Positions 1 through 46,553 of a stretch of DNA of 46,553 nucleotides are shown in pieces; positions within the stretch are counted from its first letter, which is position 1; each line of letters starts with the position of its first letter. Location: the NCBI GenBank assembly GCA_902797395.1, contig CADBSO010000027.1, forward strand, positions 1 to 46,553, given 5' to 3'. The stretch is from an uncultured Spirochaetales bacterium. GTDB taxonomy: Bacteria; Spirochaetota; Spirochaetia; Sphaerochaetales; Sphaerochaetaceae. A program made the position numbers and the translations under genes. Under the pieces are notes generated by a model. It worked only from the letters and a program-made list of their open reading frames with translations. It was not told the origin of the DNA and did no database searches.

Positions 1-98
1 GTATGCCTATCCAAATGGCTTTGCGACCCAAAGCGCGCATATGCGGCGCATATCCGGCGATTGGATATGGCAGAATAAATGTATTCGAACATAGCCAA
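1..98 (+). repeat. Family A dispersed repeat, copy A1 (half-size, at window edge)
   Basis: This segment is almost identical to 44577-44673 and to the reverse complement of 46354-46450. Shared blocks include CCAAATGGCTTTGCGACCC, the palindromic GCGCATATGCG, a small ATATCC...GGATAT hairpin, and the terminal sequence TTCGAACATAGCCAA at 84-98. The left part could continue outside the window. Nothing in it looks coding. Minus-strand reading frames over it also appear at the other copies only because the repeat is shared. Confidence 0.8.
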
Positions 99-38669: not shown

Positions 38670-41324
38670 TCAGCTTATGCTTATTCCCTCGATTTTTCCT
38701 ATTGTGAAAGCGTAATGCGTGTCATTCAGCTCAAACTCGAGTCTTTCGCCACTAGTGTGCCCGTACAGCTTTCTGCCGAGAGGCGAGTTGAACGATATTA
38801 TGTCTCTGTCGGCATCGCTTTCCCATGGGCCGAGTATGGTGAACGTAAGAACGCTTCCATCATCATTGTTGAGTTCTACTTTGCATCCGAATGATATGCT
38901 GGACGGATCTATATCCTCCTGTCTGACGACGAAAGCCTTGGAGATTTCATCTTCAAGGGTGCTTACATTGGCGTTCAGGACTTTCTGCCTGTCCTTGGCG
39001 TATTGGTACTCGCTGTTTTCCCTCAGGTCGCCGAGCTCTCTTGCCTTCGCTATGTCCGCCGCATTTTTGGGAAGCTCAATCTTGAGGAGATTCTCATATT
39101 CCTTCTGTTTTTTGGAATATGAGGCGAAAGTGCACAGGAGTTTTTTCGGAAGCGTATCCTGCTGGGCATTGGATTCGCTGTTTTCAACATCCGGACATTT
39201 TGCGGATATTGCCTTCTTAAGCTTTACTTTCGTTATATCATCTATGCTTTGGTTTCTGTCTATCGACCAATACAGCACGGTGAGGATCGTATTGTCATCG
39301 CATTTGCTTATGAAATCGGCAAGCTTGCCGTTGTCTATCAGGTTCTGGCTGATGTACTTGGCGCTTGGCGATTTTGTGAACGTATGGATTACGTCCAGCT
39401 GTATGGATATCAGATCGAATTCGTTCTGAGAAACTCTGCTCCAGTTTTTCGGATCCGGATACATCTTCATGAAATACGTGAAAAGATCCGGATTCTGCTT
39501 GGAGAGGAAGATGGATTTCTTCATCATTCTCTCTTCAAATGTGGAGTCTCCGTTTTTAGTGAAAATCCTTGTTATGTACGTCATGGGCTGCTTGGTGTAG
39601 AAGTCCTCAAGCTCTTCTTCCCATTTCTCATCGTATTTTCTTATTCCGTCGACGTAATCCTTTTTGATTTCGGCATCCTGAATGTCCATATAGTATTCGG
39701 TCTTCGCATCGTCCGGTATGCTTGCGAACACTTCCTTCTCGGTGTGGTACAGGTGCTTCTGTATCCTTTCGATCCTGTATTTTCCTTTAAGCAGCTCCTC
39801 CAGGAAAAGATATGATACGACATAGTTCTTGCTTATATCATGCGCTTTCAGGAAATTCGTGAAGTATTGGAGCATGCTCTGGAAGCTTTCGGATTCCTGA
39901 TCGCCTTCCGTTTGCAGGAAGAGCCGCGTCGTCTTTATCTTGTTGTAGATGCTGCTCTCGTTTCTGAATTGCCGATATATCTTTTCCTCGTAGGCGATAG
40001 GGGTGTCTCTGACTTCATATTCGTCGTTTTTGTTCTGAACGGTGGATATGTAGTTGTCATCCTTTATTATTTTCTTTATCTCGTCTTGGAACTTGCTGAA
40101 TTCGTTTGCTTTGAGCACGCTTGGGACAAGTTCCGCCTTCATCAGCTTTATCGTGTTGACATCGCTTTTGATGAGCGTGACAAGACCCCATCTCGGATCG
40201 TCAATGAATTTCTGCCTGAGCTTTTCCCTATTGGCGAACTCCTTGAGAACCATTATGTGCCCTTTGTCCAGAATCGAAAGGCTCTTGTTTGCCATTTCAA
40301 TTGACATCTTATGTCCGCGCTTCTCTACGAAATCTATGGTTACAAACTGGTTGCTGACACTCGTTATCCTTCCCAATCCGAAGGTCGAGTGGCTTACGAA
40401 CGCCTTTTCCTCGATTTGAACAAACTTCTCGAATTTGTCTATGGCTTGCAGGACATTGGTTTTGCCCTCATCGAGCAGACCGGAGGATTCGAGGCAGGAT
40501 TCGCATCTTTCCGATTTCCCGTACAGGACCCTGTATTGGTCGACGAGATTCGCCTTGACTTTGGAATTGGCGCCGTCTGGATCGTTCTTCAGCATTTCCT
40601 TGAGAAGGGAAACGGAATATGCCACATTGTCGTGGTTTCTTTTCTCCAATTCCGCGAGAATGAGGTTGATCTTGTCCTTTTCTATGGTCTTCATCGCTCT
40701 TGAGAGCGTGTTGATCATGTATTTCTTGTCGCCGTCGCCGATGATCTCGTCCAACGATATGGAGCAGATCTTCAGCTCCTGGGGGTTGTTTTTGCGTATG
40801 GATCTCTGCACGGCTTTCTTCAGGTCTATTATCGCGCTGTCCCTTTTTCCTTCGCTCAAATGGATTTTTGACAGCTCCTGAAGATGATGCGTATCCAAAA
40901 GGTCCTGGTCGAGGTATTTTTCTATCGCATCCTTTTGCAGCGAGATGTCAGCATCCATCTTTTTCAGAACATTGCATATCAGGCTGAGCGAATTCAGGTT
41001 CTGGTTGTCATAATCGGCTATTGTTTTGGCGAAGAAAAGGGCATGTTCGAACTTATTGGCCTTCATTGACTTGTCAACAAGCGACATCATTGCCCTGTCA
41101 TCGGATTTATTTCTTATCAAGTCGATATCCGCTTTGACGAACTTTGCGAGCGGCTTGTCCAGGTTCTTGGTTTTTTTCTCGAGATTCTGCAGCTCCTTTC
41201 CTGATACGTCCAGTTCGATGACCGAATTGTGCAGCTGTTCATATTCGGATACTTCATACGAAAACAGAGTCGTCTGAGCAATCGCTTCAGAGTCGAGCTT
41301 CTCATTAATTTGTTCTATGTTCAT
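38670..41324 (-). CDS. greA: GreA-type transcript cleavage factor with large N-terminal extension
   Basis: GreA enters the RNA polymerase secondary channel and triggers cleavage of backtracked RNA. Only the last ~150 of 884 residues are the GreA unit: the coiled-coil with ARELGDLRENSEYQYAKDRQ, carrying the catalytic acidic tip, and the FKBP-like domain ending near SPLGRKLYGHTSG. The ~730-residue front part is helical, charged and rich in Lys/Glu/Asp, with TPR-like helical pairs early and a short beta module (FGLGRITSVSNQFVTIDF) in the middle. Long GreA proteins like this are known from spirochaetes and chlamydiae; the extension's role is unknown. ATG 41324 has GAGGT just upstream. Confidence 0.92.
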   Translation of the reverse strand: MNIEQINEKLDSEAIAQTTLFSYEVSEYEQLHNSVIELDVSGKELQNLEKKTKNLDKPLAKFVKADIDLIRNKSDDRAMMSLVDKSMKANKFEHALFFAKTIADYDNQNLNSLSLICNVLKKMDADISLQKDAIEKYLDQDLLDTHHLQELSKIHLSEGKRDSAIIDLKKAVQRSIRKNNPQELKICSISLDEIIGDGDKKYMINTLSRAMKTIEKDKINLILAELEKRNHDNVAYSVSLLKEMLKNDPDGANSKVKANLVDQYRVLYGKSERCESCLESSGLLDEGKTNVLQAIDKFEKFVQIEEKAFVSHSTFGLGRITSVSNQFVTIDFVEKRGHKMSIEMANKSLSILDKGHIMVLKEFANREKLRQKFIDDPRWGLVTLIKSDVNTIKLMKAELVPSVLKANEFSKFQDEIKKIIKDDNYISTVQNKNDEYEVRDTPIAYEEKIYRQFRNESSIYNKIKTTRLFLQTEGDQESESFQSMLQYFTNFLKAHDISKNYVVSYLFLEELLKGKYRIERIQKHLYHTEKEVFASIPDDAKTEYYMDIQDAEIKKDYVDGIRKYDEKWEEELEDFYTKQPMTYITRIFTKNGDSTFEERMMKKSIFLSKQNPDLFTYFMKMYPDPKNWSRVSQNEFDLISIQLDVIHTFTKSPSAKYISQNLIDNGKLADFISKCDDNTILTVLYWSIDRNQSIDDITKVKLKKAISAKCPDVENSESNAQQDTLPKKLLCTFASYSKKQKEYENLLKIELPKNAADIAKARELGDLRENSEYQYAKDRQKVLNANVSTLEDEISKAFVVRQEDIDPSSISFGCKVELNNDDGSVLTFTILGPWESDADRDIISFNSPLGRKLYGHTSGERLEFELNDTHYAFTIGKIEGISIS

Positions 41325-41346
41325 AGCGACCTCGTTAAATTCCGCA

Positions 41347-41504
41347 TTTAGGGCGGTTCCAATAACCCGGGAATCCGGATCCGCCGGACGCAAAACCGGA
41401 AAAAGCCTTGAAACTCATCAGCATATCCGCATTCTACGCTGGTTTTTCATTTTGAAAACCCATCAGCATATCCGAACGGCAGGTTTTTTGGAAGTCCCCT
41501 TTAA
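41347..41504. repeat. Family B dispersed inverted repeat, copy B7 (upstream of greA)
   Basis: The left end TTTAGGGCGGTTCCAATAACC faces a right end whose complement is TTAAAGGGGACTTCCAAAAAACC. Inside, CATCAGCATATCCG occurs twice as a direct repeat (41418-41431 and 41461-41474). It lies 22 bp before the greA start codon, the same geometry as copies B1 and B4. Confidence 0.65.
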
Positions 41505-41777: not shown

Positions 41778-41905
41778 GAAGAGATGTTTCCGTAAAAAAT
41801 CCAGAAGCTGTTCGCGGCTTTAGCAGATCAGGCGTCAGAGCGTTTTCGTTCTTTCGACGCGCTTTTGCTTTTTCACCCTTGTGCAATCATTTACAGGAAA
41901 ATCCT

Positions 41906-42092
41906 GGTTCTGTCCGAACAGGCTGCTGATGCGGCAGAGCCGCAGAGCCGAGCGTGCGCCGGAAAGGCTGATGCCGGATAAGGCTTCGCGCTTATTCGAA
42001 TGGCTTTCGCTGCAAGATGCGCATATGCGTCGCATGCCCGGTGATTGGGTATGGCTGAATAGGTGATTGTTCATTTATTCTGACATAGCCGA
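41906..42092 (+). repeat. Family A dispersed repeat, copy A2 (full-size, degenerate)
   Basis: This segment aligns along its length with the reverse complement of 46354-46553. Shared blocks include TGTCCGAA, GGCAGAGCCGCAGAGCCG, GGATAAGGCTTCG, TTCGAATGGCTTTCG (CCAAATGGCTTTGCG elsewhere) and the final GACATAGCC. Its ends are eroded, so it is an older copy. It lies in the long rho leader. Confidence 0.7.
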
Positions 42093-42241
42093 TGGCGTTT
42101 TCAAAAAAAAGAACTGCTATTCGAAAATGCCTGCGGTTTTTTCAAGTGGTTTCCCGTCCTTGAGGTTTGCATGCGTCTTCCGGGCGCAAGGTGTTTGACG
42201 GTAATTCTTGGAACGCGCATATCAGACAACCGGACACGATG

Positions 42242-42261
42242 GAACGAATTATCATTCGTTC
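42242..42261. promoter_or_regulatory. Inverted repeat in the rho leader
   Basis: GAACGAAT and ATTCGTTC form a perfect eight-base inverted repeat around TATC, 46 bp before the chosen rho start. It could be an RNA hairpin or a protein site. If rho starts at an earlier ATG (42239 or 42167) it would be coding. Confidence 0.45.
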
Positions 42262-42307
42262 GGACATGGCCAAATCTTTCACATTAAGGATATACGAGAA
42301 TACGAAT

Positions 42308-44155
42308 ATGGAAAATGAAGAGAAGAAGAGCGTTAGGAGACGTGTGGTGCTGTCGAGCCGCAAGAGAAGCAATGCGGCTTCAGCCGCCGTTGTCGCATCC
42401 GATGATTCGGATGCTTTGGGAGTTGGAAACGAATCGAACTGCGGTTCGGACGGCACGGTATTTTCCGGAATCCCCGAAAATGGCGTTCAGAGGGAAACGG
42501 CAGGCAATTCGGATGCTGTCGCCTCTGCGGACGAGATGAGTCTGTTCGGGGAAGCTTCCGAGAGGGAGAGCGATGGCGATGAGGTTCGTTTTGATTCGCG
42601 TGCCTCGGTCGAATCTCCGGAGTCTTCGTCTGACGATGACTCTCAAATGCAAAAGCCGGAAATCGCGCCTGCATATCCTCGTCGCAGGGTGTCGTCCAGA
42701 TTGTCGGAGCGCTATCAGTCCGATGAGCAGTCGCCCCGATTGAAGGGTTATGCGAAGAGGACATTCGCTGACAGGCCGAAGAGGGGAAGAGCGAATGTGA
42801 GGAATTCCAAGGATATAATGAGGTCGGATTCCGATTTCCAGTTCGAGTCGGACGAGGGGCTTGATTTCAATAGCATATCGCCTGATAAGATAGTGTTCGT
42901 GAACGATTATATAAGCATGCAGATTCCTCAGTTGCGCGAGGTCGCTTGCGAGTTAGGACTGGATAGGGATCGGATTTTCGAATTGAAGAAGCAGGAGCTT
43001 GTTACTGAGATATTGAAGTGCAAGGCATACGCGGGTTTCAATATCAGGTCGGTCGGAACGCTGGAGATACTTCCCGAAGGCAGCTTCGGATTCCTCAGAA
43101 GCGAAATAAACAGCTATCTGCCTGGTCCTGAGGATGTTTTCGTTTCTCCGCAATTGATAAAGTCATATGCGCTTAAGACCGGAGATGTGGTTTCATGCAT
43201 GCTTCGCAATCCTCAGGCCAGTGAAAGGTTTTTCGCAGTGCAGAAGATACTGAGCGTGAACGATTGCGATCCTGCTCTTGCCAGGGGCAGGGTTCCGTTT
43301 GACAGCCTTACGCCTCTTTATCCGGATTCGATTCTGAATTTGGAAGGGATGAAGAATGATATCTCCATGAGGATAGTCAATCTGTTCGCTCCGATAGGAA
43401 AGGGCCAGCGCGCATTGATAACCGCTCCGCCGCGAACCGGAAAGACCATTTTGCTTCAGAAGATCGCGAATGCGATAACGGATAATTATCCGGATATAAA
43501 GCTTCTTGTTCTTTTGGTTGATGAACGACCCGAGGAAGTGACGGATATGAGGAGGAATGTCAAAGGCGAGGTTATAGCGTCTACATTTGATGAGCAGGCC
43601 CAGCGCCATGTGAGCGTTGCGGAAATGGTTATAGAGAAAGCCAAAAGGCAGGTTGAGTACGGCAAGGACGTGGTCATACTTCTTGATTCGATAACCAGAT
43701 TGGCTAGAGCGTATAACCAAACCGCTCCGGCAAGCGGAAAAGTCCTTTCCGGCGGCGTGGACTCCAATGCGCTTCATAAGCCTAAGAGGTTTTTCGGCGC
43801 GGCAAGGAACATTGAGAACGGCGGATCGCTTACCATAATCGCCTCCGCGCTGATAGAAACCGGAAGCAGAATGGATGAGGTCATATTTGAGGAATTCAAG
43901 GGAACTGGAAACTGTGAAATAGTTCTTGACAGGAGGATTTCCGATAAGCGCGTGTATCCTGCTATAAACCTCAAGAAAAGCGGAACGAGGAAAGAGGAGC
44001 TTCTGATAAATCAGGATGACCTTGCCAAGATATGGCTTTTGAGAAATGCGATAAACTCAATGGACGATGTGGATATGACCGAATTTGTCATAGAAAAAAT
44101 GAGGAGATACGAATCGAACCAGATTTTCCTCGGTTCGATGATGAACAGCAAGTGA
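42308..44155 (+). CDS. rho: Transcription termination factor Rho with acidic N-terminal extension
   Basis: Rho is a hexameric RNA helicase that ends untranslated transcripts. Residues ~195 onwards form the normal protein: the RNA-binding domain with [12 protein letters not shown] and [24 protein letters not shown], and the ATPase with [21 protein letters not shown] near residue 375. [26 protein letters not shown] and the secondary RNA loop follow. The first ~190 residues are Ser/Asp/Glu/Arg-rich and probably disordered, making 615 residues against ~420 in E. coli. The start is uncertain. ATG 42308 with GAGA nearby is my choice; ATG 42266, 42239 and 42167 are in frame. Confidence 0.93.
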
Positions 44156-44161
44156 GACTTG

Positions 44162-44190
44162 GAGCGCCTTTTCAAAGGCGCTCTTTCAGT
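44162..44190. terminator. Intrinsic terminator after rho
   Basis: GAGCGCCTT and AAGGCGCTC form a nine-base-pair stem around TTCA, followed by TTT on the plus strand. It ends the rho transcript. It also covers the end of the minus-strand WYL pseudogene. Confidence 0.8.
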
Positions 44191-44992
44191 TTATCTATTG
44201 TTTCCTCCCAGTCTTTTTTCCACTCGGATACGAGCAGATCAGGCTCGAGCGGCACAACATCCGCTCCGAATGTTTTGAGCCAATAGAGGATCTGCTCGAA
44301 TTGAACTGAGGTGAATTCCAAGGTGGTGCAATCGCGCGCATCGTCTTTCTCGAGTATTTGATCATCGGAGTATCGGCTTTGCCTGATGATTTCCCTTGCC
44401 CAATGGGAGTAGAATTCTATTTTGTATTTGAGCCTCCCTTTTTTCGATACGAACGCTCCGAATCTTCCATTCCCGCTCAGATTCTTATAGCTGAAGTCGT
44501 TCGGGAGACTGAACGGCTCATCTGTTAGAACAGCGTTTCTTATCCTGTGTATTGCAAATAGCTTCGTTATGTCGTTCGTGCCTATTCAAATGGCTTTGCG
44601 ACCCAAAGCGCGCATATGCGTCGCATATCCGGCGATTGGATATGGCAGAATAAATGTATTCGGACATAGCCAAAACATACGTCTTTCCGCCATCGAAGGT
44701 GATCTGATAGGGTTGGATTCTGTGCCGCTTCGACTTTTTCATTGTAGAATAGCCGCTCATAGTCGAATTCTATTGCCATGTTCCGTTTGATTCCGGCTAT
44801 GACCGCTTGCCAGATATCCTGATTTGCTTCGGCGTATTTTTTGATGTCTAGGTCTCTGGATATCGTCGGCCGGCTGGTTTCGGGTTTTTCAATGAAGTCG
44901 CTTTGGTTCGGGTATTTTCCGTCTTCTATCATTTCATGCTCAATGCTTATGCGATAGAGCATCGGTCGTGTGAGGCTTTTCATGCCTGGCAT
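44172..44992 (-). pseudogene. WYL-domain transcriptional regulator, disrupted
   Basis: The N-terminal part is a winged helix (YRISIEHEMIEDGKYP...ETSRPTISRDLDIKKY). The WYL ligand-sensing core follows (AIEFDYERLFYNEK, then HRIQPYQITFDGGKTYVLA), and a C-terminal WCX-like part ends the gene (KLFAIHRIRNAVLTDEPF to the end). These pieces lie in three frames. The first shift is at an A5 run (44739-44735). The second break is the family A insertion at 44577-44673, which splits the core after GKTYVLA. WYL proteins are usually ligand-responsive regulators, often of defence or DNA-damage genes; the target here is unknown. The start is likely ATG 44992 or 44983. Confidence 0.85.
44577..44673 (+). repeat. 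Family A dispersed repeat, copy A3 (half-size, inserted in the WYL gene)
   Basis: The 97-bp sequence matches 1-98 at nearly every position and ends in the same TTCGGACATAGCCAA (44659-44673). Because WYL-coding sequence lies on both sides, this is a true insertion and shows the approximate element limits. No clear target-site duplication is visible. Confidence 0.85.
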
Positions 44993-45249
44993 TGCGGTTT
45001 TTGCCTGCAATTTTAGTCAAAATATTTTTTTTATTCAAGTGGCATTTGCTGGTGAAACAGGTTGTTGGATTATGTTTGCATAACTTGAATTTATTTATTA
45101 TTTAATTGAAAAATAAGCAAATAACATATGTTGTATATTAAATTATATTCATGTGGATATTTCTTTTGATTTTGTTTTTACTGCATGATGCCATATGGGG
45201 TTCGGACTTGCTGAAGCAAGCGTCGGTTACTTGCTTATGCATTTCGGCT

Positions 45250-45684: not shown

Positions 45685-46353
45685 TTTTCCGTATTCTGAC
45701 TCGCTGATTTTGTTGTTTTCGGACGCCCGGCAGCCAGCATAGGCTAGCCGTCCATCTTCATTCTGGAGCTCAGCTTCGCCAGAAAGCGGAAAACCGGCAT
45801 GCGCGTATGTTGCAGACTTCAATGGATTCCGGAGGTTTTTTCAAAACGCATTTGATGCTTCACAAAACTCATTTTAGTGGTCTCAAATAACATGGCTTGA
45901 AGATTTGATTTATTAGTTATAATGTGTTACAATTTCAGCGGAAAATATGGAACTGAGGCAAAAAATGAAAAATTAAGAGTGCCGCCTGGCAGCGTTTGAA
46001 AATTTGTTGGGCGGTGTTTGCAGAACATTTCCAAAACCGGCTTTTCGCTGCTTGGCGTGGCCGGAAAACTGATGAGGCCTGTGCCTATCCGAGTGAAAAG
46101 GGAAGCGGAAGCGCTTTCGAGACGTATACTGTAAAAATAAGGGAAGCGTATCAATTGCATGGCGGTTTTCAAACCAAAGGCATGTGATTATGCTGTTTTT
46201 GGGTAGGTAGGAAAGAAGAAGGAATAGGAAGAACTAAAGAACCGTAAATCTTTTGAATTTAAATACGGGGCCCTTGCGCGGGGTTATGGTGAGTCCGAGC
46301 AGGATTTGTTTTCGCGCATATCGGGTTCCGAGGGGTTACAGAAATGAAAAACC
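45685..46353. other. Gene-free stretch after tmRNA
   Basis: I see no supportable gene in these ~670 bases. Short open frames exist but lack ribosome sites and recognisable sequence. A possible promoter (TTGATT, 17 bases, TACAAT) begins near 45907 and points right. A GGAGGTTTTTTCAAAACGC segment near 45830 weakly resembles a family B end. The stretch leads into family A copy A4. Confidence 0.5.
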
Positions 46354-46553
46354 TTGGCTATGTCCGAATACATTTATTCTGCCATATCCAATCGCCGGAT
46401 ATGTGCCGCACATGTGCGCTTTGGGTCGCAAAGCCATTTGGATAGGCACGAAGCCTTATCCTGCATTAGGCTTTTCGCCCCAAAGCGCGCCTCTCCGGCA
46501 CCTCTCCGGCTCTGCGGCTCTGTCCTATCAGTCAAACTTTCGGACATAGCCAA
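46354..46553 (-). mobile_element. Family A miniature element, copy A4 (full-size, perfect terminal inverted repeats)
   Basis: The 200-bp unit starts with TTGGCTATGTCCGAA (46354-46368) and ends with its exact complement TTCGGACATAGCCAA (46539-46553). The left ~97 bp equals the half-size copies A1 and A3. The right half matches part of copy A2. It has no transposase gene, so it would be non-autonomous (MITE-like). The window stops exactly at the terminal repeat, so a target duplication cannot be checked. Confidence 0.75.

Follow-up and report, generated by a model that had tools for sequence, protein, structure and literature searches.

The repeat families closest to the one studied here have been described in other bacteria. 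QMITE2 of Coxiella burnetii is an element of ~190 bp with terminal inverted repeats and ~78 copies, which generates 7–11-nt duplications of variable sequence and whose smaller copies resemble REP palindromes (PMC5896051). The Chunjie MITE of Geobacter uraniireducens, as presented in a review, spans 178–235 bp, possesses conserved ends and duplications, and is represented by 38 good and 57 partial copies (PMC10969869). The Correia/NEMIS elements of Neisseria are foldable, high in copy number and of two sizes, ~107 and 155 bp, the difference being an internal segment (PMC2229807). For QMITE2 and Chunjie, copies of uneven size and REP-like remnants have been described before (PMC5896051, PMC10969869). 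Here, we analyzed a window of 46,553 nucleotides, which is the whole of contig C27 of an uncultured Spirochaetales bacterium, and confirmed that its last 200 bp hold a complete MITE (copy A4). By description, the present family resembles QMITE2 in size, inverted ends, duplications, copy number and REP-like small forms; however, small QMITE2 forms are reported to have neither duplications nor terminal repeats, whereas in the present family some short units retain, at an inner end, a duplication of 8 bp. Chunjie, from a different organism, is similar by description in size range and in its partial copies. Correia elements have TA at their termini and 24-bp repeats, in contrast to the GG...CC ends, 13-bp repeats and 8-bp duplication found here. 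The known part of our findings is an ordinary MITE, and the less usual part is that its inner hairpins seem to act as alternative ends. Searches of an open-access library returned no description of the element and no report of inner-end use by a bacterial MITE.

The host assembly is of the metagenome type, with 2.01 Mb in 148 contigs and an estimated completeness of 87.5%. In a protein comparison, the Rho factor encoded in the window was nearest to Spirochaetales/Sphaerochaetaceae, with a best identity of 70% to an isolate labelled RGIG9374 Yak_Abomasum; on this basis the host is taken to be a spirochaete, probably from an animal gut. The same Rho (42308–44155, plus strand) has an N-terminal extension of ~190 residues ahead of its Rho_N domain, and in a 907-residue protein encoded nearby (38670–41393, minus strand) the GreA/GreB domains are confined to the last 155 residues.

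The element is short (~200–240 bp) and non-coding, is bounded by terminal inverted repeats and a target duplication, and occurs in many dispersed copies; it thus shows all the defining MITE features that could be tested here. The element proper of A4 comprises 196 bp, GGCTATGTCCGAA...TTCGGACATAGCC (Table 1). A preceding sequence-only reading had assigned exact 15-bp inverted ends to this copy, and positions 46354–46368 and 46539–46553 indeed match perfectly, but only 13 bp of each belong to the element. Comparison of the flanks of full copies revealed that the repeated unit spans GG to CC, while the two bases beyond it differ among copies. Since the flank identity of 18 full copies peaks at 8 bp, the outer TT/AA were assigned to the target duplication, of which A4 retains only the first two bases (AA) on its right side before the contig stops. 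The internal palindromes that the same reading had pointed out were recovered as arms at 46394–46435 and 46469–46510 with 81% complementarity. Across the window, the 15-bp repeat occurs six times at up to two mismatches, compared with 0.10 occurrences expected.

Table 1. Positions of the MITE copies and their parts in the 46,553-nucleotide window
Feature	Position	Strand	Basis or remark
Copy A1, long variant, left part only	1–98	-	Cut by contig start
Copy A2, full length (188 bp), old	41905–42092	-	Profile and alignment
Diverged solo hairpin, one TIR-like end	42232–42271	-	Directly upstream of rho, without target duplication; family membership tentative
Copy A3, left half of element, right half missing	44575–44673	-	Inside broken WYL-type gene
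Left 8-bp target duplication of A4, AAAACCTT	46348–46355	.	Sequence; length inferred from other copies
Copy A4, complete MITE	46354–46553	+	Element proper GG...CC, 46356–46551
Left terminal inverted repeat of A4, GGCTATGTCCGAA, 13 bp	46356–46368	+	Repeat match, flank comparison
Left terminal hairpin of A4, 34 bp, GGCTATGTCC...GCCATATCC	46356–46389	+	TIR-like site 36(-) at inner end (3 mismatches)
Right terminal hairpin of A4, 36 bp, GGCTCTGTCC...GGACATAGCC	46516–46551	+	TIR-like site 163(+) at inner end (3 mismatches)
Right terminal inverted repeat of A4	46539–46551	-	Repeat match, flank comparison

Three further copies lie in the window. The earlier reading had classed A2 and A4 as full-size and A1 and A3 as half-size forms, and its first pair holds, A4 being complete and A2 full-length though old (75% identity over the aligned part, with three of eight target-duplication bases matching). 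The second pair does not: the contig starts within A1, whose first bases align with a ~234-bp variant bearing a central insert, and A3 is a truncated copy that lacks both the right end and a target duplication. The coexistence of half- and full-size versions was nevertheless borne out by half-size copies with their own duplications elsewhere in the genome. The WYL-domain-type gene around A3 (44160–45010, minus strand) has two lesions, the A3 insertion and, upstream of A3, a frameshift. Plasmid-encoded WYL proteins are weakly similar to the downstream part of the gene, and Pfam returned no match for either part.

Genome-wide, the 15-bp repeat was found 154 times at up to two mismatches, compared with six times for the reversed control. 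A search of the host genome with the 200-bp query yielded 146 first-look candidates and 40 scored places (53 rows less 13 opposite-strand self-palindrome matches), at which the copies were 82–98% identical. A profile made from 12 copies and applied to 298 kb of the 2.0-Mb genome gave 111 matches, or ~108 copies and pieces after three composites were merged. Of these, 18 full and 32 partial copies lie within contigs, and a contig end cuts the other 58. If every cut copy accounts for two contig ends, the elements number at least ~79. These counts lie far above the four copies first noticed and support the view that the family is MITE-like, high in copy number and disruptive to the assembly, its insertions accounting for many of the contig breaks in the host genome. 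Full copies measure ~185–210 bp, with a longer variant of ~232–234 bp that carries the central insert, and the 13-bp repeats are kept across a 20-copy alignment and decayed in the oldest copies. Because the copies are 82–98% identical and some duplications are exact, the most fitting view of the family is that of a selfish element after recent multiplication. A crude ORF call placed 23 of the 111 matches over an ORF and 60 too close to a contig edge; the remaining 28 were intergenic (17 tandem, 8 convergent and 3 divergent), counts that carry no inference on gene context, as many of the called ORFs lay mostly within the element itself.

The target duplication was measured on the 18 full copies that lie within contigs. 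Their left and right flanks were most alike at 8 bp, with a mean identity of 0.757 compared with 0.42 for mispaired flanks, and no peak was seen at 3–7 or 9–11 bp; the 8-bp signal was reached in 0 of 20,000 permutations. The duplication was exact in five copies (e.g. AAAGGTTT and ATTCGATA) and matched at seven or more of eight positions in nine, the other nine, A2 included, matching at six or fewer. From 123 outward ends, a target consensus of WWWNNWWW was derived, in which positions 1, 2, 7 and 8 are 96–97% A/T, compared with 59% at positions 9–40. The alignment of full-size copies thus bears out both the conserved terminal repeats and the 8-bp duplication, and the family is a clean MITE whose duplication and target are firmly measured. 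From the duplication and the target together, which form a DDE-type signature, we infer a DDE-type transposase. Acting in trans, such an enzyme would join the GG...CC ends of each non-coding palindromic copy, 196 bp or ~232 bp in the long variant and with 13-bp terminal inverted repeats, to 8-bp staggered cuts at WWWNNWWW targets, and gap repair at these cuts would produce the duplication observed.

Structural inspection of the A4 interior revealed five GG-starting sites within five mismatches of GGCTATGTCCGAA, namely 36(-), 44(+), 87(+), 102(-) and 163(+), compared with 0.92 expected (6 of 2000 shuffles); at up to three mismatches two sites remained, compared with 0.03 expected (0 of 2000 shuffles). 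The inner ends resemble the outer end because the outer hairpins are palindromes, so that the nested hairpins present degraded copies of the outer end toward the interior. The breakpoints of partial copies inside contigs were compared with these sites. Among 14 right-only copies, eight start at site 163 (L189 and L202 having been assigned there by eye rather than by script), two at site 44 and four elsewhere; among eight left-only copies, two end at site 36, two at site 102 and four elsewhere, and the breakpoint of A3 is not at an inner TIR-like site. These counts omit L051, L174, L175, L212, L153 and L207, in which the apparent break is the long-variant insert or a contig edge, together with one more partial match on L207 and three merged composites, and they include among the right-only copies L198, which by eye is also a composite. 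The associated binomials are generous, as they assume uniform positions and independent copies.

In support of inner-end use, six of the 32 partial inside copies carry a duplication matching at seven or more of eight positions, compared with 0.59 expected (0 of 20,000 permutations). Two of the six are composites that retain both outer ends, and the other four use an inner end: units of 155 bp (8/8), 110 bp (8/8) and 100 bp (7/8), and the 36-bp L201 (7/8). Among these inner-end units, exact duplications flank L022 (left end GGATATGCGCC, TTATTCTT) and L177 (right end CAAAGCC, AAGATTTT), and L197 has a duplication of 7/8. A solo left hairpin at L214 has AAAACTTT on either side with a one-base offset and falls outside the script's duplication count. 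These data are suggestive of inner hairpin ends being used with their own duplications, and from breakpoints and duplications together the transposase probably uses inner ends too, now and then. Pairing of an inner with an outer end would yield the shorter elements of 36, ~100, 110 and 155 bp with duplications of their own, and the 78- and 92-bp forms would arise when the stretch separating two hairpins is lost.

Solitary hairpins provide a further line of evidence. The right terminal hairpin sequence of A4 also occurs alone at other loci, and six of seven solo right hairpins tested were without a target duplication. Their new junctions are target-like all the same, with A/T at 24 of 28 key positions compared with 59% in nearby flanks. 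Some insertion sequences give rise to deletions that begin at a transposon end, and here an inner end that attacks a nearby target would delete the rest of the element and the adjoining DNA, leaving a solo hairpin without duplication. The case for such deletions is suggestive and depends mainly on the sequence of one gene. At L179, a 36-bp solo hairpin lies within a DUF262/GmrSD gene whose two parts lie 816 bp apart in a Kurthia plasmid relative, in one 581-residue gene; at L179 only the hairpin separates them, and protein similarity reaches the hairpin edges. In a second, weaker case, the gene at L189 resembles one on contig C1 exactly as far as the hairpin (30 residues, 53% identity), and the last 39 residues of the C1 relative are missing.

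A serious rival explanation accepts the same MITE and attributes its short forms to passive decay, namely replication slippage or recombination across hairpins, with the transposase using outer ends only. Hairpin-mediated deletion also predicts breakpoints at hairpin edges, and slippage could favor the very same ones since the inner ends are inverted outer-end copies within palindromes. Moreover, a duplication of at least 7/8 is missing from 26 of the 32 partial inside copies. The 78- and 92-bp composites retain both outer ends and exact duplications, as internal deletion predicts. In contrast, neither the duplications at inner-end units (8/8 at L022 and L177, 7/8 at L197 and the 36-bp L201) nor the target-like junctions of the solo hairpins would be expected from slippage. 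We consider passive decay alone a real possibility, if a rather doubtful one. With high confidence, we favor as the overall explanation a MITE family with an 8-bp duplication and nested hairpins whose inner ends are probably used at times. Points against it are the nine full copies with duplications matching at six or fewer positions, the many partial copies and solo right hairpins that carry no good duplication, and the failure to find a transposase with these ends in the regions inspected. A stronger version, in which every hairpin is a usable, weakened end, so that one transposase would generate a mobile ladder from the 196-bp element to the 36-bp hairpin as well as inner-end deletions that leave solo-hairpin scars, is put forward tentatively. 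If inner ends are used, they would offer a concrete route from a MITE to a solitary palindrome and a source of gene-breaking deletions; under the ladder reading, REP-like solitary palindromes would be by-products of DDE transposition rather than a separate family.

The remaining alternatives fit less well. A REP/BIME-like palindrome family spread by RAYT (REP-associated tyrosine transposase) would share the high copy number, the palindromic hairpins and the REP-looking solo 36-bp hairpins; to our knowledge, RAYT/IS200-type movement leaves no target duplication, and the 8-bp duplication and symmetric target present here make this origin very improbable. The predicted folds of the A4 strand are very stable, exceeding those of shuffled sequences by z-scores of -7.1 (DNA) and -8.2 and -9.7 (RNA), which would suit selection for a transcript terminator or for a regulatory RNA with a defined structure. 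Strong folding is, however, to be expected here because any long palindrome folds stably; Rfam covariance models gave no match at E up to 1, and across 20 copies the covariation term was unfavorable (+0.76 kcal/mol), with two-sided changes in only 5 of 49 pairs, so that a selected RNA is scarcely credible. No reading frame is conserved, since none of the six stays open in more than 6 of the 20 copies, and nothing in the Rfam, covariation or reading-frame tests points to a host function of the element. An assembly or binning artefact, e.g. a foreign repeat joined to contig ends, could produce the 58 copies at contig ends and is next to impossible in view of the 18 full and 32 partial copies inside contigs, where duplications tie both flanks.

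No autonomous element with the MITE ends was found in the parts read of this 87.5%-complete assembly. The search for a parent, proposed by the earlier reading, covered three transposase families of the host genome, namely ISL3 at two places, IS1595 at two and IS256 in four pieces, and no MITE repeat flanked any of them. The ISL3, IS1595 and IS256 families make ~8-bp duplications, and ISL3 and IS1595 ends often start with GG. They share the duplication length with the present MITE, but the copies with visible ends in the host genome have other terminal repeats: GGCCTTTCGCTGTTTAGTGTGGGT for ISL3 on C1, GGTGCTTGACTGGTTAAG... for IS1595 on C38, and a different repeat for IS256 on C38. With three sets of visible ends unlike those of the MITE, these host-genome copies give no support to a derivation from ISL3, IS1595 or IS256. 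L175 (2496–3819) carries an insertion sequence of the ISL3 type, which has ends of 24 bp (GGCCTTTCGCTGTTTAGTGTGGGT) and a broken reading frame. TIR sites outside ordinary copies, inspected individually, were solo or diverged hairpins and included no parent. Among 139 family genomes, the pattern WWGGCTATGTCCGAAW matched one relative, in an apparent coding stretch with no partner repeat; this lone match is at chance level, because the reversed control gave five matches in relatives. For type II MITEs, an autonomous partner is not a requirement (PMC10969869).

Outside the host genome, no match to the element was found in plasmids, in 60 relatives (two congeners included) or in 393 class members, and viral contigs contained neither of two exact patterns. 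A search of 138 family members gave no more than two matches, of 24–27 bases (E 0.006–0.0095), which are taken as chance. The relative, family and class samples overlap, and similarity searches of this kind can overlook diverged relatives. The two sampled congeners without the MITE have genomes of ~1.2 Mb and the MITE-bearing genome is 2.0 Mb, which is only suggestive of a tie between MITE presence and larger genome size.

Other repeats accompany the MITE. A second family, seen in the window at 45835–45850 and at L250_L012, L231, L030, L044_L157 and other loci, is marked by the end-like GAGGTTTTTTCAAAACTC and by ...CATTTCAAAATGATGCGAAGCCTATTTTGAACCAGGGC... as its core; its 16-mer was matched 48 times (up to two mismatches) in the 298 kb, often as inverted pairs ~150–200 bp apart, and for 9 of the 48 matches a MITE copy is no more than 60 bp away. 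The GAGGTTTTTTCAAAACTC repeats are probably another MITE family. A third inverted repeat, AAGTTAAGGGCACTTCTAAAAACCT, is present at L186 (5381–5405 and 5531–5555) with arms 125 bp apart, and similar sequences occur at other loci.
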